Position numbers and translations under genes: made by a program. A DNA stretch of 33,914 nucleotides from Dehalococcoidia bacterium (GTDB taxonomy: Bacteria > Chloroflexota > Dehalococcoidia > GIF9 > UBA5629), in assembly GCA_003142375.1 (NCBI GenBank), contig PLME01000012.1:38340-72253 (forward strand). Reading direction: 5' to 3'. Each line of letters starts with the position of its first letter. The stretch's first letter is position 1. Below, piece by piece: positions 2,929 to 33,746 of this stretch. The notes beneath the pieces are model-generated. The model saw only the letters and a list, made by a program, of their open reading frames with translations, did not search any database and was not told where the DNA came from.

Positions 2929-2958
2929 ATTATGCCCTGATAACGGAGGGAATTTACC

Positions 2959-15483: not shown

Positions 15484-16713
15484 ATGCGGATTTGCATTTT
15501 AAGCTATCGCAGCTACCCCTATTCAGGCGGCCAGGGCATTTACATGCGCTATCTGAGCAATGCCCTGCGTGACCTGGGGCACGAGGTAGACCTCATGTCG
15601 GGGCCTCCCTATCCTATTGTGGACGAGGGCGTGGGGTTGATAAAGCTGCCCAGCCTTGACCTTTATGCCATGACATCCTTTCAACGGCTGTTCATCGACC
15701 CGCGCAAGCTGAATACCTTTGCAAACTTCGTGGAGTGGGGTGGCACGGTGACCGGTTATTTCTCCGAGCCCCTGACCTTCGGCATGAGGGCCTACCAGTA
15801 TCTCTGCCGTGATGGTAAAAAGCTGTATGACGTGATACACGATAACCAGACGTTATCATATGGAATAGTCGACATTCAAAAAGCAGGATATCCGGTGGTG
15901 GAGACCATTCATCACCCGGTCACCAAAGACCGTGACCTGGCTATCAGCTCGGCCAAATCCCTCAAAGACAAGCTTGGCTATCGACGCTGGTTTTCTTTCA
16001 CCGGCATGCAGATAAAAGTGGCACAACAACTGCCCTATATTATCACCGTCTCGGAGATGGCCAAGCAGCATATTCACGAAGTATTTAAGGTGCCTGAGAA
16101 CAATCTCAGAGTAATCTATAACGGAATCGATACCGAACTCTTTAGTCCATCGGACAGCGTGCGAAGGCTGGATAACATGATACTGATGGTGATGAGCCGT
16201 GATACCGCAGTCAAAGGCTTACGCTTCCTGCTCGAAGCCCTGGCCGAATTGAGGAAAAAATACGATTTAAACCTTGTGGTGGTGGGCAGGACCATGGGAG
16301 ACGGCCTGACGGAGAAGCTCATGGAGCGGCTGGGCGTCACGGCCAGTGTCACCTTCCGAGACCGTATAGATACTGATGAGCTGGTAAACCTCTACAGGTC
16401 GGCAACGCTGGTGGCCGTGCCCTCCACTTATGAAGGATTCGGGCTGCCGGCAGCCGAGGCCATGTCCTGCGGCGCACCGGTGGTATCCACCACAGCCGGG
16501 GCATTGCCGGAAGTGGTGGGTGGTGCAGGGATACTGGTGCCTCCCGCTGATTCTGCGGCGCTGGCTGTCGCCATAGGCAGCCTCGTTGCAGACCCTGTTA
16601 AAAGACTGGAATACAGCTCGCTGGGCCGCCAGCGCATCCTGGATAACTTCAACTGGAAGAATGCCGCCCAACGCACGGCCAGCATATATCTCGAAGCTAT
16701 TAAAGGCAGGTAA
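15484..16713 (+). CDS. Family-4-type glycosyltransferase (first of a tandem pair)
   Basis: 409 residues with the GT-B fold. The N-terminal half has SYRSYPYSGGQGIYMRYLS (residues 7-25), where the Gly-rich loop binds the acceptor side. The C-terminal half has VIYNGIDTELF, then the nucleotide-sugar signature YEGFGLPAAEAMSCG with the EX7E glutamates, and TTAGALPEVVGGAGILVPP. No membrane segment is seen, so it likely works on the cytoplasmic face of the membrane on a lipid-linked or nucleotide-linked acceptor. The start ATG lacks a clear ribosome site. It is about half identical by eye to the next gene, a clear tandem duplication. Sugar and acceptor cannot be told from sequence. Confidence 0.92.
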   Translation: MRICILSYRSYPYSGGQGIYMRYLSNALRDLGHEVDLMSGPPYPIVDEGVGLIKLPSLDLYAMTSFQRLFIDPRKLNTFANFVEWGGTVTGYFSEPLTFGMRAYQYLCRDGKKLYDVIHDNQTLSYGIVDIQKAGYPVVETIHHPVTKDRDLAISSAKSLKDKLGYRRWFSFTGMQIKVAQQLPYIITVSEMAKQHIHEVFKVPENNLRVIYNGIDTELFSPSDSVRRLDNMILMVMSRDTAVKGLRFLLEALAELRKKYDLNLVVVGRTMGDGLTEKLMERLGVTASVTFRDRIDTDELVNLYRSATLVAVPSTYEGFGLPAAEAMSCGAPVVSTTAGALPEVVGGAGILVPPADSAALAVAIGSLVADPVKRLEYSSLGRQRILDNFNWKNAAQRTASIYLEAIKGR

Positions 16714-16749
16714 TAAGGGCCGTAAGATGCCCTCCAATTTGCCCCAGCA

Positions 16750-16778
16750 TTGATTAACCGGTTAATTACATGTAAAAT
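16750..16778 (+). promoter_or_regulatory. Promoter of the second glycosyltransferase
   Basis: TTGATT (16750-16755), 17-bp spacer, TAAAAT (16773-16778), giving a leader of about 45 nt to ATG 16831. A perfect 14-bp palindrome overlaps the -35 and spacer, so the two tandem paralogues may be regulated separately. Confidence 0.6.
16753..16766. promoter_or_regulatory. Perfect palindrome, candidate operator
   Basis: ATTAACCGGTTAAT is its own reverse complement over 14 bp. It covers the last 3 bases of the -35 and the first 11 bases of the spacer of the promoter above, the typical place of a repressor site. No other intergenic copy was noticed. Confidence 0.5.
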
Positions 16779-16830
16779 GTTCGGGTGCCTTCAGCATGAT
16801 TACTAATAAAGTGAGGTTGGCGGATATCCG

Positions 16831-18081
16831 ATGCGTGTATGTTTACTCAGTTACCGGGCATATAAATACTCCGGCGGACAGGGAGTATATGTTAAATATC
16901 TCAGCCAGTCTCTAAGGGACCTGGGGCATGAGGTGGATGTGGTTGCCGGGCCGCCTTATCCCGACCTTGCGGACGGCATCAAGTTGATCAAGCTCCCCAG
17001 CCTTGACCTTTACAGATACCCTGAAATCAGACGTTACTTTATCAATCCCCTGCTGTTGAATACCTGGCCAAACTTCGTTGAGTGGATTGGAGAATGCGGT
17101 GGATTCTTTACCGAGCCGAAGACCTTCGGGATGCGTGCCTACGATATGTTCCGCCAGAATGGCCATGCCAAGAAATATGATATCGTGCACGACAACCAGT
17201 GCATTACCGAGGGTATATTGAAGATCAGGCAGATGGGAATGCCGATGGTGACCACAATTCACCATCCTATAACCATAGACCGGCAGCTGGCACTCAAGGC
17301 GGCACGCTCTTTTATCAATGAACTGGGAATACGCCGCTGGTATGCTGTCTGCGACACTCAAGTCAAGGTTGCCGGACAGTTGTCGCACTTCATCACGGAT
17401 TCTCAGAATTCGCTGGATGAAATAACACAGAGCTTCGGCCTCACTCCCGATAAATTCAAGATAATCTACTGCGGCGTGGACCATGAGATATTCAGGAAAT
17501 CTCCGGGTTCGGTCAGAGCGGATAATAAAATATTGGTGATCAACAGCGGCGACACGCCGCTCAAGGGCTTGAAGTATTTAATGGAAGCCGTTGCCGAGCT
17601 GCGCAAGACCAGAAACATCAAGTTGACCATAGTCGGGCAGCCCATGAAGAATGGCTATACGCAGGGGCTGATACGGTCGCTGCATTTGGAAGACTGTGCT
17701 ACATATACGGGCAAAATTGATACCGATGATCTGGTCAACCACTATTCCACTGCTGCCATGCTGGTTGTCCCTTCGATTTACGAGGGTTTCGGATTGCCTG
17801 CAGCCGAAGCCATGGCCTGCGGCACGCCGGTGATATCGACCACTGCCGGGGCATTGCCCGAGGTGGTAGGTGACGCCGGCATCCTGATACCGCCCGGCGA
17901 TACAGGGGCAATAGTCGGCGCCATTACTTCGTTGCTGGATGATGAAAACAAACGCAGACAATTGGGCAAGATGGGCGTTGAAAGGGTCAGGAGATTATTT
18001 AACTGGGAGAACACAGCCAGGCAGACGGCTGACTATTACAGGGAGGCGGTGGAGTCACAGGCTTTACACGCCGGGGTTTAA
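16831..18081 (+). CDS. Family-4-type glycosyltransferase (second of a tandem pair)
   Basis: 416 residues, GT-B fold, paralogue of the preceding gene. The N-terminus SYRAYKYSGGQGVYVKYLS and GPPYPDL mirror its neighbour. The C-terminal signature is YEGFGLPAAEAMACG, followed by STTAGALPEVVGDAGILIPP. Both share the middle pattern TIHHPIT/V...DR..A...A, so the pair arose by duplication and probably adds related sugars to the same product. It starts at ATG 16831 after GTGAGG. The next gene begins 8 bases after its stop, so they form an operon. It has its own promoter at 16750-16778. Confidence 0.92.
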   Translation: MRVCLLSYRAYKYSGGQGVYVKYLSQSLRDLGHEVDVVAGPPYPDLADGIKLIKLPSLDLYRYPEIRRYFINPLLLNTWPNFVEWIGECGGFFTEPKTFGMRAYDMFRQNGHAKKYDIVHDNQCITEGILKIRQMGMPMVTTIHHPITIDRQLALKAARSFINELGIRRWYAVCDTQVKVAGQLSHFITDSQNSLDEITQSFGLTPDKFKIIYCGVDHEIFRKSPGSVRADNKILVINSGDTPLKGLKYLMEAVAELRKTRNIKLTIVGQPMKNGYTQGLIRSLHLEDCATYTGKIDTDDLVNHYSTAAMLVVPSIYEGFGLPAAEAMACGTPVISTTAGALPEVVGDAGILIPPGDTGAIVGAITSLLDDENKRRQLGKMGVERVRRLFNWENTARQTADYYREAVESQALHAGV

Positions 18082-18088
18082 AACTACT

Positions 18089-19153
18089 ATGAGCATAAAC
18101 AGCAGCACTCTTGATAATGTGTTCGGCATGGAAAATCAATTGTCGAAGCAGTTCCTCAACCCCACGTTGGAGGGCATAGTCAGCGTTCAGGAAAAGGGGG
18201 GCGGCGTGCCGGAGCTGGAGGGGGGCATCGTCGAACCATGGACCCATGTAGAGTGCGCCATGGCTATCGATGCAGGCGGTTTCCACGACGAGGCCCAAAA
18301 AGCCTACGAGTGGCTGGCCAATATCCAACTTGCAGATGGAAGCTGGTATGCCAATTACAGGAACGGCCGGCCCAAAGACATGTACAAGGTTTCGCACGCT
18401 ATTTCTTATATTGCAGTGGGCATCTGGCACAACTATCTAATAAATGATGACGTCCGTTTTGTCGACAGGATGTGGCCCTGCGTGCGCAGCGCCATAGATT
18501 GTATTCTCGAAATGCGCGGCCCCAATGGGGAAATATACTGGGCCAGGGATGCAGAAGGCGCTTTGTATCCATCGGCGCAAATCGCCAGCTGCAGTTCATC
18601 TTATTTAAGCATCAGGTGCGCCCTGAAGATGGCGGAACTCATGGGCGAAGACCGCCGCGACTGGCGGGAAGCCAATGAGGTTTTGCGCTCCGCAATCCTG
18701 AAGATGCCCCTGCCCTATGTTGCTAAGTTCGAAGGCGACAGCCTCTCGGCGTTTGCCATGGACTGGTATTATCCCGCCCTGTGCAGCGTCATCAACGGGC
18801 GTGAAGCGATTAGCCGCATTTACGACAGCTGGGATAAATTCATAGTGCACGGCAAAGGTTCAGTTTGCAACCTGGAGAAACAGTGGGTCACGGCTGCCGA
18901 AACGAGCGAACTGGCCATTTCCCTGGCGGTGCATGGTGAATACCGGCAGGCTGCGATGGTTTACAATTGGATCCACCATTTGCGCGACGAGGATGGGGCT
19001 TACTGGTATGGCATGGCTTACCCGGAAAACGAGATATGGCCGCTGGAGAAGCCGACCTGGACGGCCGCCGCAGTTGTCCTGGCGGCGGATATGCTCAACC
19101 GGGAATCAGCAACAAACCTTCTTTTCGATCACCACGGGGTCGCTCTTCTTTAG
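18089..19153 (+). CDS. Alpha/alpha-toroid protein, prenyltransferase-like
   Basis: 354 residues without a signal peptide. The all-helical pattern and two QW-like turns (ANIQLADGSWYANY near residue 77 and HLRDEDGAYWYGM near residue 303) suggest an alpha/alpha toroid as in squalene/prenyl cyclase-like or glycoside hydrolase-like proteins. The DxDD motif of class II cyclases is absent, so 'prenyltransferase' should be read as a fold label only. Genes of this look next to GT4 glycosyltransferases and a SAM methyltransferase occur in Actinobacteria and Chloroflexota, which hints at a surface-glycan or lipid role. I chose ATG 18089 because a longer frame to 17939 would run inside the previous gene. 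Its last 48 bases overlap the convergent methyltransferase gene. Confidence 0.75.
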   Translation: MSINSSTLDNVFGMENQLSKQFLNPTLEGIVSVQEKGGGVPELEGGIVEPWTHVECAMAIDAGGFHDEAQKAYEWLANIQLADGSWYANYRNGRPKDMYKVSHAISYIAVGIWHNYLINDDVRFVDRMWPCVRSAIDCILEMRGPNGEIYWARDAEGALYPSAQIASCSSSYLSIRCALKMAELMGEDRRDWREANEVLRSAILKMPLPYVAKFEGDSLSAFAMDWYYPALCSVINGREAISRIYDSWDKFIVHGKGSVCNLEKQWVTAAETSELAISLAVHGEYRQAAMVYNWIHHLRDEDGAYWYGMAYPENEIWPLEKPTWTAAAVVLAADMLNRESATNLLFDHHGVALL

Positions 19154-19759
19154 AATCCCCAAAGTATTTACCATGGGCAGCTCCACATAATTGCCGCTTT
19201 TGACGGCTTTTTTATACACATCGTAGGGCGCCTGCCCCCCCTTTGCCGGGTCCAAATATATATCGTGAAAGATCAGGTATCCCCCCGGCACCAGGTGAGG
19301 GTTCCAGCAGGTATAGTCAGACAAAGCCGTCTCATAGCTGTGGCCGCCGTCGATGAAAACGAGGCTGAGCGGCGTGGACCAGTTCCTGGCTGCCACCCTG
19401 GACCAGGTAACCATGGGCACTACCGTGTCTTCCAGCCCCGCTTCTTTTAAAGTGACCCTCAGTATGGGGAAGCTGTCTATCTCCCCTTTCTTCTCATCAT
19501 ACAAGTCGGGATCAAAGTAAAGCTGCCCCAGCTGCTGCTCCTCCGAGCCGCGGTGGTGATCGATGGTGAAGAGCGTAACTCCCCTGATTTTACAGGCGGC
19601 GCCCAAATAGACGGTGGACTTACCGCAGAAGCTGCCTATCTCCAGACAGGGCCCTGAAGCGGCTGCCTCCAGCGCCAGCTTGAAGAGGCATTGGCCCTCG
19701 TCCTCGGCCAGGTATCCTTTCACCTGTGAAGCAAATATAAAAGCAGATTCTATATCCAT
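19106..19759 (-). CDS. Class I SAM-dependent methyltransferase (Methyltransf_24 type)
   Basis: 217 residues with a Rossmann-like methyltransferase fold. CLEIGSFCGKSTVYLG (residues ~39-54) is the SAM-binding motif I, TIDHH (65-69) the acidic end of strand 2, and VFIDGGHSYETALSDYTCW (about 133-151) the motif typical of the CmcI/Methyltransf_24 group, whose members often methylate sugars or glycan precursors. VPGGYLIFHDIY follows. It sits 35 bases behind the large BNR gene on the same strand, with its 3' end overlapping the toroid gene by 48 bases on the other strand. A role in decorating the surface glycan made by the adjacent glycosyltransferases is inference. Confidence 0.87.
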   Translation of the reverse strand: MDIESAFIFASQVKGYLAEDEGQCLFKLALEAAASGPCLEIGSFCGKSTVYLGAACKIRGVTLFTIDHHRGSEEQQLGQLYFDPDLYDEKKGEIDSFPILRVTLKEAGLEDTVVPMVTWSRVAARNWSTPLSLVFIDGGHSYETALSDYTCWNPHLVPGGYLIFHDIYLDPAKGGQAPYDVYKKAVKSGNYVELPMVNTLGILKKSDPVVIEKKVCC

Positions 19760-19794: not shown

Positions 19795-22700
19795 TTAATC
19801 CCTGCGCATATAATTGTAAAGGAATACGGCGGTGATCAAAACCAGTATAACCGCCGCGGCGATGATTACAGCTATCCAGAGGTAGGATGGGGGCAGGGAC
19901 TCCCAGGGTAAGGTCCGGCTTGAGGATATGGCGAACGTGCCCGTGGGGCTGGGATCGCTTTCAATCGGCGCCACGGCTTTCACCTGCCAGAAATAAATTC
20001 TGCCCGGCGCCAGACTGCCCTCATATTTGTAGGCGGTGGTGGTCGTGACGGTCTGGACAATTATATCTTTCAAGTCCTGATCGTAAGCAAGGGTGAACTC
20101 ATATTTCTTGGCATTCTTAATGGGTGTCCAGCTAAAGCCGACCGACGATTGGCAGTCATTGCAGACGCCGCCCACAGGTGTCAGCAATTCCGGGCCCGTT
20201 CCTATGCCCTTCACAGCAAAACCCGGTTTGACTGAGAAAAACATGACGGGCGACCACAGGCTGTGAATGGCGGAGCCGGTTATGGTCCTGCTGCCCCTGA
20301 TTCTCCAATAATAGGACTTCCCGGCTTCCAATACACCGGGTGGGATCCATGCACCCGGTGACAATTGCTGTGATTTGCCGAGTGTCACTATCAAATTACC
20401 CGTGGTATTATCCACGCCCACCACCCAGGCGCCCGTCCTATTATCCACCGGGAACATATGGATGCCCGTCTTATTGTCCACCAGGAATACATTCTGGGAC
20501 AGCAGCAACGTAAAATTCACGTCTTTGGCCATCAGCAGGTCGTAGCCGAAGATATCCTTCAGTTGCCGCCATTTAATATCAATCTGCTGGGACCTGCCGG
20601 TAACGGGGTCCGCCCCGATAAAACTCCCGGACGGCGGTGCTGTTGGCCAGGGGCTCACCTTGGCTACCGAGTCTATATATTGCCAGAGGCAGCCTATTTT
20701 ATTATCGAAATCGTATGGCTTCGCAATGTTATCGATTGCCCACAACGTATTATTGGTATTGGATGATATTTTGAATGATGTGGGCTCATGGGTGAAGGCA
20801 ACGGGATAGTTGACAGCGCCCGATACGGGAAGGCCGTCTTTCATCTCATCCCACTCGGGCGCCGGGGGGACCTTGACCCTCGGATAGAGTGTGCGGTCCA
20901 CGCCGCCGCTGTTCAAAGGAGTGGTTGTATCAAGGTTCCAGGCGCCATAAAGGGCGTCGCCGGCCATGGCTATCCCAAAAAATGCACGGTTGATAGGCTC
21001 CAGCTCATCCCAGTCGGTACTGCTGCCCACAACCCATCTGTAAATAACGCCGTCGCTGCTTGTGATTGACACAGCACCAGCGTTTACGGCCGCATAGATG
21101 ATCATATTCTTGTCGTACTTGCTATCCGTGATTACATGCACGTTACCTGTCTCAGGCAACATCTTAAGTATGGTGAATTTGGGGTTAGGTTCATTAAAAT
21201 CGGTCCAGGCTACATAGGCCTCGGGGTTCCCCAATATGCTGATGCCCGTGCCTATGAAGACCATATCCGTCTCTTTGGGGTTGACCAGCGGAGTAGTTAT
21301 CGTATGTGCGGATACGGGTAAATCCGTATTGACGAAATTGCCGGGCACCCAATTGGTAGATCCCTGGTAAAGTTGCCTTACCCTGTAGTCCTCAAGTACG
21401 TAGATAGTTGTTTCATCCCTAAATGTTACATCACGCAGGGATGATATTCCCGCCAGGACTAGTTCCCATCTCTGCCCCTCATCCGGGGTATACATGATAG
21501 TGGATGTGGCCAGGTCCCCGAATATCAGTGCGCTGGAAGAGCCCGTCGCCTTCACGTTCACACGCAAGATCATTCCTGTGTTATTGGTTGTATGCGTTAA
21601 GATGCGTTCCCATACATCCCCCAGCGTATCGCTGGTGGAACGCCATACGCTATCGAAACTATAAGTTACGGTGCCGACTGTATTCAGAGAAGACAGGTAG
21701 AGCACGCTGCCCTGGGTGGTGGCGGGTGGAGCTTCAAGGACTGCCGAATCCGATAGTTGATTGATCTTGGTATCTATCAGGCCGATCTGGTTCCAGCTGA
21801 GCCCGCCGTTTGAGCTGTATGAAAAAGCGGACTCATCCAGTGCCACAGTATTCAATTTGGATTTAGGCCATTGTCCTAAAGCCCATCCCGTTCCTCCGGT
21901 ATAGTCATCTTCCGAGCTTGTAGCGCAGTAGGCCATGCCGTTATAGCCCCAGCCCAGTATGGCGTTGGCGTAGAAGATTGGAGGAATACTCAGACTGTTA
22001 GTATTCCCTCCACCTGTTGGTGACTTGTAGCCGTTATAATCTGCTGAGCTGGTCCAGGTGGCGGTCCCCGGGCTGGACGACTGGGCATTGGAGCTTTGAT
22101 AGATAGGGACCATGGCGGTAGCCGGGTTAGCCGGGTTAGCCGGGTTAGCCGTGGCTTCACCGGCCAGCAGGATGCCGTTGGTCTGGCTGCCGTTATAGGC
22201 AATCGAATAGATACGTCCTGTAGAGACCACAGGCAGGGGGGTAATGGTGTAGGGAAGGGCGCCGGCGAAGGCATTAATATAAAAAACGCCGGTTTGGGTA
22301 GTTCTGCCCATAGGATCTGTGAACGCAGTGCCGGATTGGATGCTGGTGAAGCAGCCTTGCCCGGCGGGGTTCTGGCTGTTGAAATCGGACGGCAGTGCCA
22401 GGTCGGTCCCGATCACCTGAGCCGCTGTGACACTGGCAAAGCTGGCGATATTACTCCATGTTGTAGTGTTTGCTGTAGTATCATGTTGTCCAATGCTAAG
22501 AACCGCCGATGCGCCGCAAGAAATGACGGCTAGTGTTAAATCCGTGGTATAGCTCGGTGAGAATTTAAGGGATGTTACAGCAGCAGGTGTAATGCCCTGC
22601 GAGGGCCATCCAATACTACCAGAGCCGTACTGGTGGTTTAATACTTGCCCGGAGTTGGTTGTGGTGCGTGTGCCGATAGCGATATCGCGCAGCGCGTTTC

Positions 22701-23208
22701 CGTATTGCCTGGATATATCTATGCAGCTTACATACTCATTCGCGACCAGGCTGTTTAGGCCGGCATTTTGCCAGTTGCCACCTCCATCGATGGATACATA
22801 TACCTGCCGGGGCCCTGGTGCACTACCATCAGTGACAACCACTACGAATCTCGGATCGTCCGGAGCTACTGCAACCGACCAGACCGGCAAAGCGGCTCCG
22901 GCGGCGGTGGTAAGGCTATTGCTGATATCGGTGAAGCTGTACCCGCCGTTCAGGGAGCGAAATAGCGTCAGGTTTTCAGTATCGGCGCAATAGATAACCC
23001 CTTCGCCCAGGGCCACGGAATTAATCTCGCTTCCAGCTCTAATTACATTGTCGGGGCCTTCAGCCGGTGTTTTTACTACGGACCATGTCAGGGTCCGGCT
23101 GGCTGAGTCGGCGGCATGGGCGGCAGGATAGAACGAACATATATCTAAAATGCCCAGTACCAGCAAAAGAAAAATGGCGAATATGCGGTATCCACGTTTT
23201 CTATACAT
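19795..23208 (-). CDS. Large secreted BNR/Asp-box repeat protein with C-terminal membrane anchor
   Basis: 1137 residues. A signal peptide ends in AHA about residue 32. Many Asp-box-like turns (S-x-D/N-G-G-x-x-W) follow: SLNGGYSF, SIDGGGNW, SSNGGLSW, TPDEGQRW; these point to one or more beta-propellers of sialidase/Vps10-like form, without obvious sialidase catalytic residues. After about residue 850 come two fibronectin-III-like stretches with W-W and YYWRIRG/YFWQVKA patterns. A single membrane helix (LWIAVIIAAAVILVLITAVF) and short basic tail (YNYMRRD) anchor the C-terminus. Similar proteins in Dehalococcoides have been proposed as S-layer components; I infer the same here. No Shine-Dalgarno is visible; a GGAC-TNAA-GTCC hairpin abuts the start. 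It likely forms a unit with the methyltransferase. Confidence 0.85.
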   Translation of the reverse strand: MYRKRGYRIFAIFLLLVLGILDICSFYPAAHAADSASRTLTWSVVKTPAEGPDNVIRAGSEINSVALGEGVIYCADTENLTLFRSLNGGYSFTDISNSLTTAAGAALPVWSVAVAPDDPRFVVVVTDGSAPGPRQVYVSIDGGGNWQNAGLNSLVANEYVSCIDISRQYGNALRDIAIGTRTTTNSGQVLNHQYGSGSIGWPSQGITPAAVTSLKFSPSYTTDLTLAVISCGASAVLSIGQHDTTANTTTWSNIASFASVTAAQVIGTDLALPSDFNSQNPAGQGCFTSIQSGTAFTDPMGRTTQTGVFYINAFAGALPYTITPLPVVSTGRIYSIAYNGSQTNGILLAGEATANPANPANPATAMVPIYQSSNAQSSSPGTATWTSSADYNGYKSPTGGGNTNSLSIPPIFYANAILGWGYNGMAYCATSSEDDYTGGTGWALGQWPKSKLNTVALDESAFSYSSNGGLSWNQIGLIDTKINQLSDSAVLEAPPATTQGSVLYLSSLNTVGTVTYSFDSVWRSTSDTLGDVWERILTHTTNNTGMILRVNVKATGSSSALIFGDLATSTIMYTPDEGQRWELVLAGISSLRDVTFRDETTIYVLEDYRVRQLYQGSTNWVPGNFVNTDLPVSAHTITTPLVNPKETDMVFIGTGISILGNPEAYVAWTDFNEPNPKFTILKMLPETGNVHVITDSKYDKNMIIYAAVNAGAVSITSSDGVIYRWVVGSSTDWDELEPINRAFFGIAMAGDALYGAWNLDTTTPLNSGGVDRTLYPRVKVPPAPEWDEMKDGLPVSGAVNYPVAFTHEPTSFKISSNTNNTLWAIDNIAKPYDFDNKIGCLWQYIDSVAKVSPWPTAPPSGSFIGADPVTGRSQQIDIKWRQLKDIFGYDLLMAKDVNFTLLLSQNVFLVDNKTGIHMFPVDNRTGAWVVGVDNTTGNLIVTLGKSQQLSPGAWIPPGVLEAGKSYYWRIRGSRTITGSAIHSLWSPVMFFSVKPGFAVKGIGTGPELLTPVGGVCNDCQSSVGFSWTPIKNAKKYEFTLAYDQDLKDIIVQTVTTTTAYKYEGSLAPGRIYFWQVKAVAPIESDPSPTGTFAISSSRTLPWESLPPSYLWIAVIIAAAVILVLITAVFLYNYMRRD
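22121..22150 (-). repeat. In-frame 9-bp tandem repeat coding Pro-Ala-Asn
   Basis: The 9-bp unit GCCGGGTTA is repeated three times (22121-22147) plus 3 bases. On the coding strand it gives PAN repeats in a loop of the BNR protein. Gain or loss of units would keep frame. Confidence 0.85.
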
Positions 23209-23324: not shown

Positions 23325-23606
23325 TCACTCATCTAGAACACCCCCTTTTGGCTTTATTGATAAGGCAGCCTGCTCGCTGCCTTTAACGACTGAAGGTGAT
23401 TCCGACAGGACCGGAAATACAGGCATGGCTATCTGGGCTGGCGAAACCTTTGGCTCACGCCTTGATTGCGAGGTAATAGCCAGGTGAAGCGCTTCGCCCA
23501 TCGTGATACCGAGTTTGTTGCTTAATTCGGTGAGCAAAAAATAATCGCCGACATTGACGCGGACATGCCGCGTACTCAACTCGCTGGGATACTTCCGCTT
23601 TGCCAC
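23325..23606 (-). CDS. Small ribbon-helix-helix-type DNA-binding protein, probable autoregulator
   Basis: 93 residues. Residues 11-47 fit a ribbon-helix-helix fold: the strand STRHVRVNV, helix 1 in DYFLLTELSNKLG, and helix 2 in TMGEALHLAITS. The remaining ~45 residues are low in structure (PKVSPAQIAMPVFPVLSESPS) with no partner fold recognised. The start is GTG 23606; there is no ribosome site, but a TTGACA-17-TAGTAT promoter ends only 10 bases before the GTG, so the mRNA is nearly leaderless. Dyad repeats overlap that promoter, as expected for self-repression. It lies 116 bp before the BNR surface-protein gene on the same strand and may control it. The fold call is from pattern only. Confidence 0.65.
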   Translation of the reverse strand: MAKRKYPSELSTRHVRVNVGDYFLLTELSNKLGITMGEALHLAITSQSRREPKVSPAQIAMPVFPVLSESPSVVKGSEQAALSIKPKGGVLDE

Positions 23607-24037: not shown

Positions 24038-25399
24038 ATGATTGAGATATTAGAAGCTTCTCAAACGGCAACCCATGATCCCAAGGTGCTGCACCTTATC
24101 AACGAAATGATCGACGGCCGTATTGAAGAGATACGTCCGGTTATCGACTTCACCAAGCAGTCCGGTGCCGTATATCCCCAGGTTGAAACGCTGCTGGGCA
24201 AGACCTCGGAAGAGGTTATAAAAATACTCGATAGCCTGGTGGAGGAGCGCATACTGGAAGGGCGTTTCTATGACCGCCTGATCTTCTGTCCCGTATGTAA
24301 TTCCATGAATTTGAGGCCCAGCCTGAGGTGCCCTAAATGCGGGTCGGGTAATGTTGCCAAGGGAAGGATTCTGGAGCACTTCGCCTGCGGGAAGAACGGG
24401 TTGGAGCAGGAGTTCATCGCAGGCGGAAAATACGTATGTCCGCATTGTAAAAAACCGCTTAAGTTCCTGGGCACGGATTACCGCAGCCTGGGCGTGAATT
24501 ACAAGTGCCAGAGCTGCGGCGGCCTGTCCACTGATATCACCATGAAATGGCAGTGCCTTAAATGCTCCATCTTCTTCTCCGATGAAGAAGCTAAAGTCCA
24601 GACCATTAACTCTTACATTTTGAATGAGCAGAGCAGGAACTGGCTTACATTCGATATGGGCTTCAAGTCCAAGTTTATCACCTACCTGGAGCAGCAGGGC
24701 TACAATGTATTTGAAAAGGCCAGGGTGAACAGCGGGTCCGGGTCGGGGGTGACGCACGTAATGGACATGCTGGCCCAGCGTGACGACGGGTTCCTTACAT
24801 TCATACTGGGCATTGGTATAGCCATCGGGCACGATTCGGAAAATATCGGCCTCGAGGATGTGTTCAGGTTCGATAACAAGGCCTATGACCTGGGTATACA
24901 TGATAAGATCCTGCTGGCCATGCCCGGGCTAAATAGCGAGGCCAGGCAATTTGCCCAGAGGCAGCGCATCAAGTCGTTCAATGCCGACGAATTGGAGGCA
25001 TTCTTAAAGGGCGCAGGCGATAACCAGCCGGGCAAAGTTGATAAAAAACCGTTCAAGTTTGAAAGCCGTAAACAGTTGCTGAAATACCTGCACGGACAGG
25101 GCTACAGGACGGAGGAAAAAGCCAAAATACGCGGCCGCTCGGGAGCCGAATATACCATGGATATTATCGCTTATTACGACGACGGGCTGTTCACACATAC
25201 CATATCCATCGGTATCCTGGTGGATGCCCAGGGGGTTAGCCTGGAAGCCGTATCCGCTTATGATACCAAGGCCTATGACATCGGCATCCACGATAAGATA
25301 CTGCTGGCGTCGCCGGGCCTGGCCAAAGAAGCACAGCAATTTGCCGAACAGCAGAAGATAAAAATTATTAATGTGGAGGATGCGGCCACACTAGCATGA
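24038..25399 (+). CDS. Zinc-ribbon (TackOD1-like) protein with two degenerate nuclease-fold repeats
   Basis: 453 residues, no membrane segment. The N-terminal ~75 residues look helical (helix-turn-helix-like). Residues ~84-176 carry five to six CxxC pairs (CPVC, CPKC, CPHC, CQSC, CLKC) plus HFACG and LGTDYR, closely following the pattern of the TackOD1 output domain. Two direct repeats follow (about 206-322 and 342-452); both share KAYDxGIHDKILLAxPGL and resemble Mrr-like restriction-endonuclease folds. The early Asp is present (HVMDM, YTMDI), but the E-x-K expected on the next strand is replaced by hydrophobic/Gly residues, so nuclease activity is unlikely. I prefer ATG 24038 because GGGGAAA precedes it; ATG 24020 has no ribosome site. 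The pilB gene begins 24 bases later, so it heads the pilus operon, perhaps as a regulator (inference). Confidence 0.75.
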   Translation: MIEILEASQTATHDPKVLHLINEMIDGRIEEIRPVIDFTKQSGAVYPQVETLLGKTSEEVIKILDSLVEERILEGRFYDRLIFCPVCNSMNLRPSLRCPKCGSGNVAKGRILEHFACGKNGLEQEFIAGGKYVCPHCKKPLKFLGTDYRSLGVNYKCQSCGGLSTDITMKWQCLKCSIFFSDEEAKVQTINSYILNEQSRNWLTFDMGFKSKFITYLEQQGYNVFEKARVNSGSGSGVTHVMDMLAQRDDGFLTFILGIGIAIGHDSENIGLEDVFRFDNKAYDLGIHDKILLAMPGLNSEARQFAQRQRIKSFNADELEAFLKGAGDNQPGKVDKKPFKFESRKQLLKYLHGQGYRTEEKAKIRGRSGAEYTMDIIAYYDDGLFTHTISIGILVDAQGVSLEAVSAYDTKAYDIGIHDKILLASPGLAKEAQQFAEQQKIKIINVEDAATLA

Positions 25400-27036: not shown

Positions 27037-28251
27037 ATGGAATACGAATATGTCGGATATACGGTAGACCGCCGGGTCGTAAAAGGCAGGATAACTGCCG
27101 ACAGCGAGAAGAGCGCCGGCGATGCGCTTTTACGCGACGGCTACCAGATTCTCAACGTAAAGCCCATCACCCCTTTCCTTACCGGTGTTCCTTCCTTTAT
27201 GAAACCGAAGGTCAAGCCGGAAGATGTGGTAATGTTTTCCAGGCAACTGGCTTTGCTTCTCGAGTCCGGCGTAGGGATAGTACAAAGCCTCGACCTGCTC
27301 CGTGCACAGTCGGTCAGCAAGAATTTTTCCGCCATGCTGGCAAAAGTGGTGACCGACCTGCGCGCTGGTTTGCCGCTATCAATTGCCCTGGAAAAACACC
27401 CCGGGGCTTTTTCCAAGATGTTCTGCAAGATTATTGCCGTCGGCGAACAAACCGGTCAATTGGAGAGCGTACTGAGGAACCTTGCCGGCTATTCCGAGCA
27501 GTCTACAGCGGCTGTCAGGAAGGTCAAGCAGGCGACAACTTATCCCGTGGTGGTGCTGGTCCTGGCAATCCTGGTGGCCATACTCATGGTCACATTCATT
27601 TTGCCGCCGATCTTGGCCGTATTTAAAAACCTGGGCGGTAACCTGCCGGTGATCACACAGATACTGATATGGGGGATTTCATTCGCCACCAGCTACGGTA
27701 TATACATATTTATAGTTATTGGCCTGGCAGGGGTAGTCGGCTATTTATATAGCAGGACGCCTGAGGGCGCCTATCAGAAGGATGCCCTGTTGCTTAGATT
27801 GCCGGTACTGGGTAGGCTCATCCTGCTCAACACCCTTTCACGTATCTGCCGCAGCATCACCCTGCTATTCAGGTCAGGCCTGCCCCTGCCCGATATTTTA
27901 ACTTTGACCGCCGATTCCGCAGGCAATAAGGTTATAGCCAAAGCCCTGATGGATGTAGAGCAGGACATTATCAAGGGCGAGGCCCTGGCCTCGGCGATGA
28001 GGAAAAAGCTCGTTTTTCTGCCGCTCATGGTAGAGATGATCAGGGTGGGGGAAGAGACCGGAAACCTCGACAGCACTTTGACTGTGGTCTCGGACAGCTT
28101 CGAAATCGAGGCGGCTGACAAGCTGCAGACGTTGCTGGGCCTGATCGAGCCTGCCATGACCGTAGCCATCGGCCTGGTGGTCGGGTTCCTGGCATTGTCT
28201 ATTTTCGTTCCTATCTACTCCACCGTCAGCATGGTCGGAGGAGGAGGGTAA
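27037..28251 (+). CDS. pilC: Type IV pilus inner-membrane platform protein PilC (GspF family)
   Basis: 404 residues. Two GspF domains are visible: FSRQLALLLESGVGIVQSLDLL (about 68-89) and SRICRSITLLFRSGLPLPDIL (about 268-288). Each is followed by a membrane helix; three helices in all: VVVLVLAILVAILMVTFILP, the segment around IYIFIVIGLAGVVGYLY, and the last, AIGLVVGFLALSIFVPIY. EQTG and EETGNL motifs lie after each domain. PilC is the platform on which PilB and PilT act. It lies 50 bases after pilB and 4 bases before the first prepilin gene, whose ribosome site (GGAGGAGGG) is in its last codons. Confidence 0.95.
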   Translation: MEYEYVGYTVDRRVVKGRITADSEKSAGDALLRDGYQILNVKPITPFLTGVPSFMKPKVKPEDVVMFSRQLALLLESGVGIVQSLDLLRAQSVSKNFSAMLAKVVTDLRAGLPLSIALEKHPGAFSKMFCKIIAVGEQTGQLESVLRNLAGYSEQSTAAVRKVKQATTYPVVVLVLAILVAILMVTFILPPILAVFKNLGGNLPVITQILIWGISFATSYGIYIFIVIGLAGVVGYLYSRTPEGAYQKDALLLRLPVLGRLILLNTLSRICRSITLLFRSGLPLPDILTLTADSAGNKVIAKALMDVEQDIIKGEALASAMRKKLVFLPLMVEMIRVGEETGNLDSTLTVVSDSFEIEAADKLQTLLGLIEPAMTVAIGLVVGFLALSIFVPIYSTVSMVGGGG

Positions 28252-28255
28252 ACAT

Positions 28256-28729
28256 ATGAGGCCTCTTGTCAGTGGTGGTGAGTGGGGAGTCAGTCTTATG
28301 GAAGCCCTGGTAGCCGTCGCTATTTTGGGCTTCGTGGGTGTCACATTGGTTGCGGGCATATATACAACCATTCAGGGTAATAATATAGCGCGCACCAATA
28401 TCACGGAGGAAAGCCTGGCGCGCTATGAACTTGAATATGTCAGGTCTGTAGGCGAAAACTGGACCAATATCTCTAAAGCCACGACGCCCTGGTCATATAC
28501 ATTGCCGGGCGGACCCTATCCGGCCTGGGATTCATCCCACAACAGCCTTCCATCGGGTTACACAGGCTATTCCGTAACGGTACAAGGAGCTTTGCTGACC
28601 GCATCACCTTATAACAGCGATTCCAAAATCCAGAAGGTGACTGCTACCGTGACATATACTATCGTGACATATAAGATGGGAAATCAAGTGAAGAGCATGC
28701 AGATAGCCGAATACATAACCGGTTATTAA
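28256..28729 (+). CDS. Type IV prepilin-like protein (PilV/GspI-like minor pilin)
   Basis: 157 residues. A short 11-residue leader ends in G11, and the mature part begins VSLMEALVAVAILGF with E16 at position +5, an exact prepilin peptidase (type III signal) site. A hydrophobic N-terminal helix covers about 12-36. The C-terminal ~110 residues contain aromatic-rich beta strands (WSYTLPGGPYPAW, YTGYSVTVQG), as in minor pilins. GspI/PilV-like members usually prime assembly at the pilus tip. The start is confirmed by GGAGG just upstream. A prepilin peptidase is not in the window, so it must be encoded elsewhere. Confidence 0.85.
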   Translation: MRPLVSGGEWGVSLMEALVAVAILGFVGVTLVAGIYTTIQGNNIARTNITEESLARYELEYVRSVGENWTNISKATTPWSYTLPGGPYPAWDSSHNSLPSGYTGYSVTVQGALLTASPYNSDSKIQKVTATVTYTIVTYKMGNQVKSMQIAEYITGY

Positions 28730-28740
28730 GTTGACATAAG

Positions 28741-29259
28741 ATGATGATAAGCGGAAAGTCTGGTTTAAACGCCAAGTGGAGCAGGGGTTACACGCTGATA
28801 GAATTGTTAGTCCTGATAACTATTATAGGCGGGGTCAGCGCAGTTATGGCCCTGACATTCAGCGAGGCGACCAAGCTGACGAGCTCTGATATGGCGCAGG
28901 CCATAGTGTTGGCGCAAGTACACCAGGCCGGCGACTGGATTGCCAAAGACGTCGCCGGCGCCTACAGTGTATCGGCCGGGTCATCGGGCAACTGGACCTG
29001 CTCAATGTCATGCTATCAATGGAACGGGAGCGCGTTTACGACCAGCACTATAGCCTACACGATAAGCAATGGGGTACTTAGGCGCAATGGGCAATACATT
29101 GCACAATATATCGTAAACCCCGGGACCGACACTTTATTTACCAAGGTCACCCCCACAGTTAACGAGAATAATACGTATTTATTGACTGTCAAGGCGGTAA
29201 AAAATAACGTTAGCTTCAGTAAGGTCTTCAAAATCTTCCAGAGGATACCGCCGCAGTGA
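28741..29259 (+). CDS. Type IV prepilin-like protein (GspJ/PilW-like minor pilin)
   Basis: 172 residues. The leader MMISGKSGLNAKWSRG is followed by YTLIELLVLITIIGG with E21 at +5, a clean prepilin site. The N-terminal helix runs to about residue 45. The following SSDMAQAIVLAQVHQAGDWIAKDV is the region where GspJ/PilW-like pilins have a conserved alpha-spine. The C-terminal part is Thr/Ser/Asn-rich and contains two cysteines (CSMSC, about 84-88), possibly a small disulfide loop. ATG 28741 or 28744 may be used; no strong ribosome site is visible. Its stop overlaps the start region of the next gene. Confidence 0.82.
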   Translation: MMISGKSGLNAKWSRGYTLIELLVLITIIGGVSAVMALTFSEATKLTSSDMAQAIVLAQVHQAGDWIAKDVAGAYSVSAGSSGNWTCSMSCYQWNGSAFTTSTIAYTISNGVLRRNGQYIAQYIVNPGTDTLFTKVTPTVNENNTYLLTVKAVKNNVSFSKVFKIFQRIPPQ

Positions 29260-29267
29260 GGCGCATT

Positions 29268-30524
29268 ATGATGTTTAGAAGGTTTCTAAGAAAAATCGGT
29301 GGTAAAGAGTCCGGCATGGTATTGCCCCTGGCCCTGGTACTGTTGGTGGCCGCGGCCTTGATAGTTATACCCGGGTTGGGGTTCATGTATTCACTCCTGA
29401 CCACAAACCGCACTGCTCAACAGGACGTAACAGCCTATTACTCTGCCGATGCAGGTGTGTCTGCAGTCTACTGGTATTTTAATAAAAATTCCGCCGCCCC
29501 TGCTTTCCCTTATACTCTTTCGGTCAATGGGCTGACAGTGAATGTGACGCAGTTGGCGCATACGTCTGCCATCGATAACTCATCTGACAATTATACCATT
29601 CAGTCGAGTGCGCTGGTGGGTACCCAACCCAGGGCAACCGTGGTGGCCAAAATCAATATTCCAGCCCCCGGCAACAATATATTCAGCGAGGCGGCAGCCA
29701 GCCTCCAAGGGGATTTCATCATTGACGGCGGTGGACACATAATATCCGACGGGAAAATACCGGGTAACTACGGCAATATATGGGCAAATGGAAATGTAAA
29801 TATTAAGAATGGAGAAGTCGGAGGAACTTCGTGCCCCGGACAGGGCATTGCATCGGCAACAAACAGCGTGACCGTCGATCAGTGGAGTGGGTGTGTTGCC
29901 ACAAAGGCCCCCAATCAACCGACACCAATCTCATATACAATTACCCTCTCCAATTTTACGACTCCGGCGGATGCCCCCAACGGCACGAACTTCACCAGCC
30001 AGGCATCAAGTTGGGCAAATGGTGGTACGACATATACCCTACCAGGGGCCGGATATGTGAACGGCGATGCGACTATAGGGGGATCTAATACTGTTATATT
30101 AAACGGCAATTTGCATGTAAAAGGAAAGCTCACCATAACTGGAAGTGGGGTGGTCAAGGGAGCCTACACCATCATAGTCGATGGGGCGCTGGTTGTAAGC
30201 GGTGGGGCATCAGCCAGCCTTGCGGCCGGTAACATCCCTTTTATTATTGTCGAGGGCACAGGGAGTACTAAATCGAACCCTGCTGTCGACATTTCGGGCA
30301 GCGCGGAGGTAGCGGCAGTAATATATGCTCCTAACGGTTTTGCTTATTTGCATGGTGGTCCAGGCGCTGACGGCTACAATGTATACGGCTCTGTTATTGC
30401 TAAAAGCGGCATAGAGGTCGATAGCATGACAATTAAGTACATGAGCGGCATACACTCGGAGACCCAGATACCCGGCGCTGGCCTAGGAGGCGTCCCGGTT
30501 TTAATTGACTACAATTATCAATGA
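29268..30524 (+). CDS. PilX-like pilus protein with C-terminal beta-helix-like domain
   Basis: 418 residues. The N-terminus MMFRRFLRKIGGKESGMVLPLALVLLVAAALIV has the PilX pattern, where Glu at +5 is missing and P follows the G-M-V-L segment. The region AYYSADAGVSAVYWY (about 57-71) is the usual PilX motif. The last ~220 residues are Gly/Ala/Ser/Val-rich and repetitive (GYVNGDATIGG, VILNGNLHVKGKLTITGSG, IIVDGALVVSGG, VDISGSAEVAAVIYAPNG), consistent with a parallel beta-helix or DUF7305-like fold. I chose ATG 29268 because GAGG at 29258-29261 lies 6 bases before it; GTG 29256 overlapping the previous stop is the alternative. A pilus-tip adhesin role is an inference. Confidence 0.8.
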   Translation: MMFRRFLRKIGGKESGMVLPLALVLLVAAALIVIPGLGFMYSLLTTNRTAQQDVTAYYSADAGVSAVYWYFNKNSAAPAFPYTLSVNGLTVNVTQLAHTSAIDNSSDNYTIQSSALVGTQPRATVVAKINIPAPGNNIFSEAAASLQGDFIIDGGGHIISDGKIPGNYGNIWANGNVNIKNGEVGGTSCPGQGIASATNSVTVDQWSGCVATKAPNQPTPISYTITLSNFTTPADAPNGTNFTSQASSWANGGTTYTLPGAGYVNGDATIGGSNTVILNGNLHVKGKLTITGSGVVKGAYTIIVDGALVVSGGASASLAAGNIPFIIVEGTGSTKSNPAVDISGSAEVAAVIYAPNGFAYLHGGPGADGYNVYGSVIAKSGIEVDSMTIKYMSGIHSETQIPGAGLGGVPVLIDYNYQ

Positions 30525-30610: not shown

Positions 30611-31210
30611 TTGCGTCCGCCCGCTAATTCTTCCAAGAGTGCCACACGTAGCCTCCTGCAAAGGCTGCCCCGCTTGAGCACGTCTGTGTGGCTGATCATT
30701 GTAGGGGCCCTTTTTCTCATAGCCATAGTGCCCATCGCCATGTCCTACTCGGACGAGATCTACAGGCAGAGCGCCCTGAATAACAGGCTGGGGGAACTGG
30801 AAGTGCAATATAATATCCTCCAGGGCCAATTAACAGCACAGTCCTCAATCGATAGTGAAATAACTAAATTACGCTCAGATATCGCCGCTGCAAGGGCAAT
30901 TTACGGAAATGGCTGCGACAGCATCGAGACATCGCAGAAATTGATTAACCTGGCCTGGCAGTATGACATTACCATCACGTCCATGTCCATCTCAACTGAC
31001 AAATCTCAAATACAGGGTACGGACTATCCCGTTACTGTTTATATACTGGGCATGAACGGCTGGATCCAGAATTTCCTGAATTTTATTAGGGACCTGGACA
31101 AGGTATTGCCGTCAAGTATGGCAACGGATATAAGCATGCAGCCCGCTCAGGCCCAGGGGTCGCCGGACCAGGCCACAATTACCGTTACCGTGTTTTGCAC
31201 TGATCAATGA
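30611..31210 (+). CDS. PilO-like pilus alignment protein
   Basis: 199 residues. A short basic N-terminus is followed by one membrane helix (about 27-44, LIIVGALFLIAIVPIAM), a coiled-coil-like stretch (about 45-95, RLGELEVQYNILQGQL), and a small alpha/beta domain with the pattern WQYDITITSMSIS and LNFIRDLDKVLPSS. This is the layout of PilO, which pairs with PilN in the inner membrane and links the motor to the outer assembly. It starts with TTG 30611. It precedes rather than follows the PilM-PilN gene, the reverse of the usual pilM-N-O order. A cytoplasmic N-terminus of about 26 residues rich in Arg/Ser is longer than average. Confidence 0.75.
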   Translation: MRPPANSSKSATRSLLQRLPRLSTSVWLIIVGALFLIAIVPIAMSYSDEIYRQSALNNRLGELEVQYNILQGQLTAQSSIDSEITKLRSDIAAARAIYGNGCDSIETSQKLINLAWQYDITITSMSISTDKSQIQGTDYPVTVYILGMNGWIQNFLNFIRDLDKVLPSSMATDISMQPAQAQGSPDQATITVTVFCTDQ

Positions 31211-31231: not shown

Positions 31232-32641
31232 ATGTTGACGCTAAATATTGAAGATGATTCGGTAAGGATAACCCAGGTCCGCGGCAAACGGGTGACATAC
31301 GCCGTCGAAGGGAACTTGACGGCCGGCTGGGTGCAGAACGGAGTCGTTCTTGATAAAGAGTCCGTAAGTCAGCAAATTATTAATCTGCTTACCACCAACA
31401 ATATCCGGGAGAGAGAAGCCATAGCCTGTGTAAGCGGTGTTCATTCAATTTACAGAGTGGTATATGTACCCAAACTCGAAAGAGGTTTGCTGGCAGAGGC
31501 AGCCGGGAAAGAGATGGAACGCGTCAGCCCCGTCCCGCTGGAAACCCTTTATACTTCGTGGCAGGACATCAAAATATCGAGTGTTGAATCGGCGCTGTGC
31601 CTGCTCGGTTTGCCACATGAAAATGTCGACTCGGTAACGGATACCTTGAAGCTGTGCGGCCTCAGGCTAAAATCGCTGGAGCTTAAGCCGCTGGCTGTGG
31701 ACCGCGTGGTTGATGAACAGACCGCCGTGGTGGTAAATGTGCAGGTAAACGGCTTTGATATCAGCGTGTTGGACTCGGGTATACCGGAGCTGATGCGCAG
31801 CCTGACCTTCGCTCAGGCAGATATGAGCGAGCCAGATAAAATATCCATGATCAACGATGAAATAGTCAGGACGGTCAATTTCTATAATTCCAGCCATACC
31901 GATAGACAACTGGACAAGAATGCAAAGTGCTTCCTGAGCGGCGACCTGCGAGATGGCCTGGAGCAGGTTATTACATACAGCATAAGAGCCCTGCCTTCCA
32001 ACCTGGCTTATCCCGCCGGGGTTGATGAGGGCAGGTTTGCCGCCAATACCGGGATGGCCTTGAAGGGGATGGGCGGCGTGGCCAAGCTGATGAAGGTTAA
32101 TATCGATGTTATGCCCCGGCTGGGGGCTACCAAACCTGCGGCCAGGACCAGCATGCTTCCACTTTTCGCGCTGGCTATTGCCTCAGTAATATTTATTGCC
32201 ACCTACATTCTTTTTAGTTCGACGGTGGCACAGAACAAAAGCCTGCAATTGCTTGTCAATGAGAAGACAAAGCAGGTCGTGGATACGCAAAGGAGTGTCA
32301 AAGAGCAGGGAGATAAAGCCGCCAAGCTGCGTGATCAATACAAGCAAACACTTAACAACTTAAAAGCTCCGCTGGATTATCTGGCTCGGCAGAGGTCTGT
32401 TATCAACAGGGACTGGGGCGATTTGATAGCTCCCCTGCCGGGATTTATATATTTGACCTCTGTCCACGATGACGGCAAAAGCATACTGATTCAAGGTACA
32501 GCTCCTAATGGTGATATGTTGCTCGATTATGCCCGCAACCTCAAGCAGAACGGAAATTACAAACAGGTAGATGTGACTTCCATAACCAGCACATCGTACA
32601 ATCAAACGCAGTTTCAGATTACTTTGACACCGGACAGATAA
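31232..32641 (+). CDS. PilM-PilN fusion protein
   Basis: 469 residues. Residues 1-285 look like PilM, the actin-like cytoplasmic ATP-binding protein: it begins LTLNIEDDSVRITQVRG, and later has AVVVNVQVNGFDISVLDSG (165-183), the expected ATPase strand pair, although the usual D-I-G-S residues are altered. Residues 286-296 (LMKVNIDVMPR) take the place of the INLLP peptide by which PilN binds PilM. A membrane helix follows (307-330), then a coiled coil (about 331-375), and a C-terminal alpha/beta domain (about 395-469) like periplasmic PilN. So PilM and PilN are joined in one chain. It lies 21 bases after the PilO-like gene. Confidence 0.78.
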   Translation: MLTLNIEDDSVRITQVRGKRVTYAVEGNLTAGWVQNGVVLDKESVSQQIINLLTTNNIREREAIACVSGVHSIYRVVYVPKLERGLLAEAAGKEMERVSPVPLETLYTSWQDIKISSVESALCLLGLPHENVDSVTDTLKLCGLRLKSLELKPLAVDRVVDEQTAVVVNVQVNGFDISVLDSGIPELMRSLTFAQADMSEPDKISMINDEIVRTVNFYNSSHTDRQLDKNAKCFLSGDLRDGLEQVITYSIRALPSNLAYPAGVDEGRFAANTGMALKGMGGVAKLMKVNIDVMPRLGATKPAARTSMLPLFALAIASVIFIATYILFSSTVAQNKSLQLLVNEKTKQVVDTQRSVKEQGDKAAKLRDQYKQTLNNLKAPLDYLARQRSVINRDWGDLIAPLPGFIYLTSVHDDGKSILIQGTAPNGDMLLDYARNLKQNGNYKQVDVTSITSTSYNQTQFQITLTPDR

Positions 32642-32675
32642 AAAAGCGAATCCCAGGGAGATCCAAGAGTTGCAG

Positions 32676-33746
32676 ATGAATATTCAGGATTTGATAAAGC
32701 TGGCAAAAGATAAAAAGGGATCAGACCTCCATCTGGTAGCAGGCGTACCTCCCCTGTTGAGAATTGACGGTGAGTTAAAGCCGTTCGCCGAATTCGGGAT
32801 TATGACTGCCGAGGATGTCGAGCGCCTCTTTCACCAGCTCGCCAATATCCACTTGAGGGATTTGCTAAAGAGCGAGTTGGAAGTTGATTTTGCGCATGAG
32901 CTTCCGGGAGGCGGGCGCGGCCGCTGTAATGCCTGCTGGCAGCAGGGCTCGATCAGCCTGGCTATACGTATTTTGTCGGACCATATTCCCAGTGTCGAAG
33001 AAATCGGGCTGCCCGATATCGCCAAGGAGTTGATAACGCGGCCCAGGGGACTGATACTGGTTACCGGCACCACAGGCTCAGGTAAAAGCACAACCATAGC
33101 TGCCATGTTCAGTCACCTTAACCACTCGTTGCAGAGATATGTTGTTACCATCGAAGACCCTATCGAATACATTCATCCCGGCATTAAATGCGCCTTTTCA
33201 CAGAGGGAACTGGACCAGGATACACATTCATTCGTGAACGCTTTAAAGTACGTCCTGAGGCAGGACCCGGATGTGATACTGGTGGGTGAAATGAGGGACC
33301 TGGAGACGGCTTCTGCTGTCCTGACTGTGGCCGAAACAGGACACCTGGTGCTGTCCACCGGGCATGCTCCCAGCGCTGCTCAATCCGTTGAGAGGATCGT
33401 GGACCTGTTCCCGCCCCATGAGAGACAGATGGCACAGTCGAGGCTGGCATCCACTCTGCTGGCGGTTTTCTGCCAGGTTCTGGTACCGCGTATAGGAGGC
33501 GGACGCGTAGCGGCCGTGGAAATCATGCTGGCTACGGCAGCGGTCAAGAATTTGATCAGGGAAGGGAAACCGTTCCTCATTCCCAACACCATTCGCACTA
33601 GCTCTAATATGGGAATGAGGACGCTGGATGATGCGTTGGTAGATCTATACAGGAGGAAGGTAATATCGCGGGAATCGGTATATGCCTTCTGTCAGGATGT
33701 AGACGATGTAAACAAAATATTGAAGTCTGATAATACGATTAAATGA
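32676..33746 (+). CDS. pilT: Type IV pilus retraction ATPase PilT
   Basis: About 356 residues; the motor that depolymerises pili, giving twitching movement or DNA uptake. It begins NIQDLIKLAKDKKGSDLHL, as PilT does. Walker A GTTGSGKST (131-139), Asp box VVTIEDPIEYIH, Walker B RQDPDVILVGEMRD and His box TGHLVLSTGHAPSAAQSVERIVDLFP are present; the usual STLHTNSA is changed to STGHAPSA, keeping the His. The AVKNLIREGK segment near residue 285 corresponds to the PilT-specific AIRNLIRE helix. No zinc cysteines, unlike PilB. I prefer ATG 32676 from family alignment; TTG 32670 with GGGAG at 32656-32660 is equally possible. A strong terminator follows 20 bases after the stop. Confidence 0.93.
   Translation: MNIQDLIKLAKDKKGSDLHLVAGVPPLLRIDGELKPFAEFGIMTAEDVERLFHQLANIHLRDLLKSELEVDFAHELPGGGRGRCNACWQQGSISLAIRILSDHIPSVEEIGLPDIAKELITRPRGLILVTGTTGSGKSTTIAAMFSHLNHSLQRYVVTIEDPIEYIHPGIKCAFSQRELDQDTHSFVNALKYVLRQDPDVILVGEMRDLETASAVLTVAETGHLVLSTGHAPSAAQSVERIVDLFPPHERQMAQSRLASTLLAVFCQVLVPRIGGGRVAAVEIMLATAAVKNLIREGKPFLIPNTIRTSSNMGMRTLDDALVDLYRRKVISRESVYAFCQDVDDVNKILKSDNTIK

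Follow-up and report, generated by a model that had tools for sequence, protein, structure and literature searches.

A zinc-ribbon protein with two inactive restriction-endonuclease folds lies directly upstream of pilB in a Dehalococcoidia genome, and the same repeat pair is fused to PilB in relatives

The 33,914-nucleotide stretch of a Dehalococcoidia genome analysed here, hereafter the window, carries a gene directly ahead of pilB at the start of a type IV pilus operon (Table 1). As the initial annotation had described, this gene is an open reading frame encoding a TackOD1 domain followed C-terminally by two Mrr-like repeats, a pair for which we use the short form Mrr2, and the ATG of pilB at 25424 lies 24 nt past its stop codon; no terminator-like site was found on the + strand between the two genes. 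An alternative in-frame ATG is present at 24020, while homologues begin at the methionine encoded at 24038, 5' of which the stretch GGGGAAAAAG resembles a ribosome-binding site. Comparison with the nearest sequenced relative gave a dN/dS of about 0.03, which indicates that the gene is real and under constraint.

Table 1 Features of the TackOD1-Mrr2 gene and the adjoining pilus operon in window coordinates.
Feature	Position	Strand	Basis
TackOD1-Mrr-Mrr CDS, 453 aa	24038..25399	+	ORF, Pfam, 20 relatives aligned, dN/dS about 0.03
TackOD1 domain, residues 17-194	24086..24619	+	PF18551 133 bits; secondary structure of model
Cluster C84-C176 of five CxxC and one HxxC, predicted to bind metal	24287..24565	+	Invariant in 21/21 sequences
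Mrr-like repeat 1, residues 205-325	24650..25012	+	Pfam, 1Y88 profile alignment, fold match
Mrr-like repeat 2, residues 336-450	25043..25387	+	Pfam, 1Y88 profile alignment, fold match
pilB, extension ATPase, 520 aa	25424..26986	+	T2SSE 414 bits, MshEN 61 bits (Pfam)
pilC, platform protein	27037..28251	+	T2SSF 193 bits (Pfam)
Two prepilin-like genes	28256..29259 (28256-28729, 28741-29259)	+	Weak N_methyl matches, N-terminal hydrophobic helix
DUF7305 protein, pilus operon	29256..30524	+	PF23981 31 bits; position kept in relatives
PilO-like gene	30611..31210	+	Position alone; no Pfam match
PilM-PilN-like fused gene	31232..32641	+	PF05137 PilN 33 bits; PF11104 PilM 19 bits, under cut-off
pilT-type ATPase	32670..33746	+	PF00437 146 bits

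Within the operon, the PilM-PilN-like open reading frame encodes 469 aa, and relatives have frames of similar length at the same place. On the other side of the TackOD1-Mrr2 gene, a - strand gene (19795-23208) encodes a probably secreted protein of about 1100 aa with a C-terminal membrane helix and a weak Sortilin-Vps10 match only. Genes of this type stand divergently beside TackOD1-Mrr2 and pilB at more than five loci and also adjoin Mrr2-fused pilB genes (see below) at three, and the product may be a pilus-linked surface protein. Between it and the pilus operon lies a 93-aa open reading frame (23325-23606, - strand) without a Pfam or NCBIfam match, whose product looks, by eye, like a ribbon-helix-helix type regulator. 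Two tandem family 4 glycosyltransferase-like genes followed by glycosyl-hydrolase-like and methyltransferase-like genes, all named by eye, occupy 15484-19759, and close relatives (three loci) keep this set next to the pilus operon.

The N-terminal part of the window protein was assigned by Pfam to TackOD1 with a score far above the curated cut-off of 32 bits, in line with the TackOD1-like cysteine pattern initially noticed as five to six CxxC pairs. The exact count is five CxxC and one HxxC (C84xxC87, C98xxC101, H114xxC117, C134xxC137, C157xxC160, C173xxC176), the same number of motifs as in the published definition of the domain (PMC5847659). All six motifs, with their 11 cysteines, are invariant among the 21 homologues, and metal binding is predicted from this pattern. 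The structural model further predicts a helical, winged-helix-like N-terminal part of TackOD1, with the zinc-ribbon motifs after it. No Response_reg (REC), EAL, GGDEF or PilZ domain was found in the window protein by Pfam, an NCBIfam search returned nothing above cut-off, and a single-protein sequence search of the PDB gave only zinc ribbons and chance matches.

The C-terminal part is matched twice by Mrr_cat (PF04471; 34.9 bits, cut-off 21). Aligned to each other, the two repeats score 252, compared with 26.8 +/- 4.6 and a maximum of 44 for 500 shuffles, and the blocks KAYDLGIHDKILLAMPGL and KAYDIGIHDKILLASPGL are both found in the protein. An AlphaFold2 model built from 21 relatives reached a mean pLDDT of 85.4, and its best solved Foldseek match was the archaeal Mrr-like protein AF1548 (PDB 1Y88; E 9.8e-6, 2.3 Å over 103 columns), followed by nucleases including Cdn1, Can2 and MspJI; a profile search of the PDB with Mrr2 had yielded a marginal 1Y88 match (E 0.083), which this fold comparison later confirmed. 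With the D...ECK motif of AF1548 as the active-site reference, repeat 1 retains D243 (24764-24766) and has G258-I-G260 (24809-24817) at the E-x-K site, while repeat 2 retains D375 (25160-25162) and has S390-I-G392 (25205-25213). Throughout the homologues, every aligned repeat carries A, G, S, V or I at the E/Q position and G, D, A, C, S, N or E, mostly G or D, at the K position. Mrr2 is thus a restriction-endonuclease fold whose active site has been lost, an inactive member of the family and not a nuclease. The initial reading of two direct repeats with a kept Asp and a replaced E-x-K, and its expectation of an Mrr or restriction fold, are therefore borne out; the repeats did not fold differently, and no complete active site was found. 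The Asp is kept in 21/21 first and 19/21 second repeats of the standalone proteins, and in both repeats this residue is nearly invariant, as are the SG loop and another Asp further along; this conservation suggests that the old nuclease cleft retains some role.

These data also bear on whether the gene encodes a still-active nuclease or a defence protein that stands next to pilB by chance. The Mrr_cat match above cut-off and the retained Asp would fit such a protein, but the Glu/Gln and the Lys are gone in both repeats and in all aligned sequences, PADLOC returned no match for the window protein, and the linkage to pilus genes described below is conserved, so that we regard this as extremely improbable.

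Matches were found in 53 of 100 related genomes; named records of relatives belong to Dehalococcoidia and other Chloroflexota, mostly as metagenome-assembled genomes, and a sample of 301 genomes from across the phylum yielded the Mrr2 pair in the window's own class only. Three kinds of protein carry it: standalone TackOD1-Mrr2 of about 455 aa, the kind found in the window; REC-linker-TackOD1-Mrr2 (roughly 630-820 aa), whose gene usually neighbours that of a GT2 polysaccharide synthase and frequently that of an epimerase; and PilB with an N-terminal Mrr2. The window's genome holds a second copy on another contig (C11; L004 2-1714) whose start is lost at the contig end; this paralogue adjoins a GT2 polysaccharide synthase and an epimerase, and its full-length relatives start with a receiver domain. 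A REC-TackOD1-GGDEF protein was observed in Candidatus Tantalella remota, a member of another phylum (L183 748-2193), with a GT2 glycosyltransferase gene (2918-4105) two genes away. TackOD1 thus pairs with different outputs. In the REC-TackOD1-Mrr2 and REC-TackOD1-GGDEF architectures, TackOD1 and Mrr2 behave like signalling modules.

Two further observations concern the wider distribution. In ten genomes of one family (f16; also locus L053), which are single-contig assemblies of 1.4-2.1 Mb, Mrr2 occurs in PilB-sized frames, and those also searched for TackOD1 gave no match to it. In about nine genomes of one family, a gene for a GAF-GGDEF-HD protein of about 1015 aa (L047 1919-4960, - strand; similar-size frames at L048, L129 and L130) lies about 4 to 10 kb from Mrr2-fused pilB; such a protein is also encoded near TackOD1-Mrr2 at L073, and the domains were checked in L047 and L073.

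The association with type IV pili extends beyond the window's family. Standalone genes from other families and orders are found downstream of pilT (L105/L168, L167, L170) or, at more than five loci, directly upstream of a canonical major pilin gene (GFTLIELLVVIAILG...), which often faces pilT. No convincing pilus gene was within reach at five loci, and several contigs in the survey were too short for judging pilus linkage. As TackOD1 (arCOG06883) proteins also occur in thaumarchaeal type IV pilus loci (PMC4858521, PMC5847659), three arrangements in two domains of life are hardly explained by inherited gene order alone. The link of TackOD1-Mrr2 to type IV pili is strong, and the proposed survey of gene neighbourhoods found it conserved across the class, as the initial annotation had anticipated.

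The central result concerns PilB itself: at least 22 relatives carry Mrr2 fused to the N-terminus of this ATPase (22 distinct PilBs), and the survey of 100 genomes contained 29 PilB open frames of 730-850 aa with both Mrr2 and PilB matches. Pfam recognises Mrr_cat, MshEN and T2SSE in one chain of a fused PilB. In the alignment, fused PilBs (about 766-814 aa) run from Mrr2 through a variable linker and the MshEN_C half to the ATPase; the window PilB and its nearest relatives have the MshEN_C half as their first part. The window PilB is the only PilB-type ATPase in the window's genome and carries no fused Mrr repeats. An AlphaFold2 model of one fused PilB was poor (pLDDT 61, pTM 0.33), and its repeats alone were moderately confident. 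Among PilBs of the window's clade with a readable upstream gene, TackOD1-Mrr2 is encoded directly upstream and on the same strand for 9 of 12 unfused pilB genes, compared with 0 of 19 fused ones. Three genomes have an unfused PilB and no TackOD1-Mrr2 gene upstream of it, which shows that TackOD1-Mrr2 is dispensable in some lineages and not strictly required. Eight genomes contain a standalone TackOD1-Mrr2 together with a fused PilB, so TackOD1-Mrr2 is not simply PilB's missing piece.

Two 24-residue motifs of the form RLGxx(L/V/I)(L/V/I)xxG in the first half of MshEN mediate c-di-GMP binding in other bacteria (PMC5013675). When this published pattern was applied in relaxed form, the MshEN_N motif was found in 0 of 35 PilBs of the window's clade, fused or unfused and including that of the window; more distant PilBs from the same bacteria possess RLGEVLVRxGM-type N-termini. 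Mrr2 thus occupies the slot of the c-di-GMP receptor half. The notion that Mrr2 stands there because c-di-GMP is absent from these bacteria was rejected, as GGDEF proteins are present, eight of them in the window's genome. Mrr2 could conceivably have turned its former nuclease pocket into a sensor of a nucleotide second messenger, be it c-di-GMP or a different one, and have replaced the receptor half of the motor. Its position at the place of MshEN_N, its occurrence where GGDEF stands in the parallel REC-TackOD1 protein, the near-invariant active-site Asp and SG loop and the GAF-GGDEF-HD gene in the vicinity of fused pilB all hint in this direction, and we treat the idea as a long shot.

With respect to the history of the two forms, the PilB tree requires two changes between fused and unfused states, with the fused pair G004/G025 nested within the unfused clade, and in the Mrr2 tree the pairs from fused PilBs, including G004/G025, branch apart from those of TackOD1 proteins. 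As the forms are phylogenetically clustered, few independent events underlie the adjacency count. For this reason we offer it as a hypothesis that the fusion to PilB is old, that parts of the window's family have lost it and that TackOD1-Mrr2 there took up a place beside pilB. An origin of the standalone gene as a split-off PilB N-terminus is unsupported, given the separate Mrr2 branches and the genomes that hold both forms.

As the Mrr repeats are fused to PilB itself, the motor is pointed to as their target, and a neutral to acidic Mrr2 (repeat pI 5.3 and 7.0) joined to an ATPase favours a role at the protein level over nucleic-acid binding. We therefore consider it unlikely that TackOD1-Mrr2 is a transcriptional or post-transcriptional regulator that would use TackOD1 and the dead folds to recognise pil promoter DNA or mRNA and would autoregulate its operon. 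A predicted winged-helix-like N-terminus with zinc ribbons, the descent of restriction-endonuclease folds from nucleic-acid enzymes, the response-regulator paralogue and published REC-wHTH-TackOD1 architectures (PMC5847659) would all suit such a regulator, but fusion of Mrr2 without TackOD1 to the motor ATPase is hard to square with a promoter-binding part, and the N-terminal part of the window protein is acidic as well (pI 4.7). An even less probable factor for natural transformation, whose dead folds would bind DNA as the pilus pulls it in, could draw on the nuclease-derived fold, the zinc ribbons and the pilus-gene linkage; it leaves both the PilB fusion and the location beside a polysaccharide synthase unexplained, no obvious competence gene is present among the window ORFs, and we give it very little weight.

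The best explanation, to which we assign a probability of roughly 0.55, is that TackOD1-Mrr2 works in the cytosol as a signalling protein specific to the type IV pilus. TackOD1, with its predicted winged helix and zinc ribbons, would be the part that receives a signal or serves as a scaffold, whereas Mrr2 would be a protein-docking output part acting on the PilB extension motor, presumably through physical contact. In many relatives, Mrr2 belongs to the motor in cis, at the position that MshEN_N takes in other PilBs, and in the window's lineage TackOD1-Mrr2, encoded directly upstream, may supply or replace the absent Mrr2 function of PilB in trans; as Mrr2 of PilB and of TackOD1 proteins lie on separate branches, their partners may differ. 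A doubtful alternative would have Mrr2 and TackOD1 hold PilB on the inner-membrane platform as a structural adaptor that carries no signal. The gene does sit within the pilus operon, and Mrr2 replaces part of the PilB N1 domain, which according to a review (PMC11656802) probably faces the stator complex, yet some lineages keep PilB and lack the gene, and the receiver-domain paralogues beside a polysaccharide synthase indicate signalling. The dead-nuclease pilus regulator initially envisaged is upheld in outline, in its TackOD1 domain, its dead folds and its pilus link, while the fusion to PilB had been missed.

In other bacteria, c-di-GMP controls pilus growth at the N-terminal domain of the extension ATPase. 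Many Dehalococcoidia have a dead nuclease pair there and employ it also in a separate zinc-ribbon signalling protein. The presence of the pair within PilB in many relatives suggests that this two-copy dead-nuclease piece has a part in pilus control that had so far escaped notice. It gives work on pilus control in Dehalococcoidia a concrete target, provides the orphan archaeal and bacterial TackOD1 with a testable partner, the pilus motor, and clearly exemplifies the recruitment of a nuclease fold to a task that does not involve nucleic acids.

No dead nuclease domain in PilB turned up in the literature searches, and the searched text of a 2024 review of PilB regulators (PMC11656802) mentions neither nucleases nor restriction folds, so the Mrr2 pair and the Mrr2-PilB fusion appear undescribed in the searched literature. 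The initial statement that no pilus regulator of this layout has been described consequently stands for these two elements and needs amending for TackOD1, whose archaeal pilus-locus proteins are published. The latter (arCOG06883) share with the window protein the five CxxC and one HxxC, the pilus loci and the REC-TackOD1 response regulators (PMC4858521, PMC5847659), and the portions consulted of these papers mention neither Mrr repeats nor a PilB fusion; the window protein, in contrast, comes from Chloroflexota (Dehalococcoidia) and has two dead Mrr-fold repeats added. AF1548 and Mrr_cat share fold and sequence with the repeats, but AF1548 has D...ECK, whereas the window repeats lack the E and K and stand two in tandem. 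The NA-iREase1/3 families (PF22722, PF22739) are likewise dead endonuclease folds and match several relatives weakly, nearly all below cut-off with one at 28.2 versus 27 bits; they are named for their association with NACHT ATPases, whereas no NACHT is present here. FimX and PilZ (PMC8389850, PMC11656802) are cytosolic proteins encoded by separate genes that tune PilB, and they serve as a works-like comparison only, as the window protein has no domain relation to them. Assignment to this class of PilB regulators is indirect, deriving from fusion, adjacency and co-occurrence. A positional counterpart is MshEN of PilB/MshE (PMC5013675), which is also an N-terminal module of an extension ATPase at the same place in the chain, whereas the fused Mrr2 has an unrelated fold and stands where the c-di-GMP motif half, MshEN_N, is missing.
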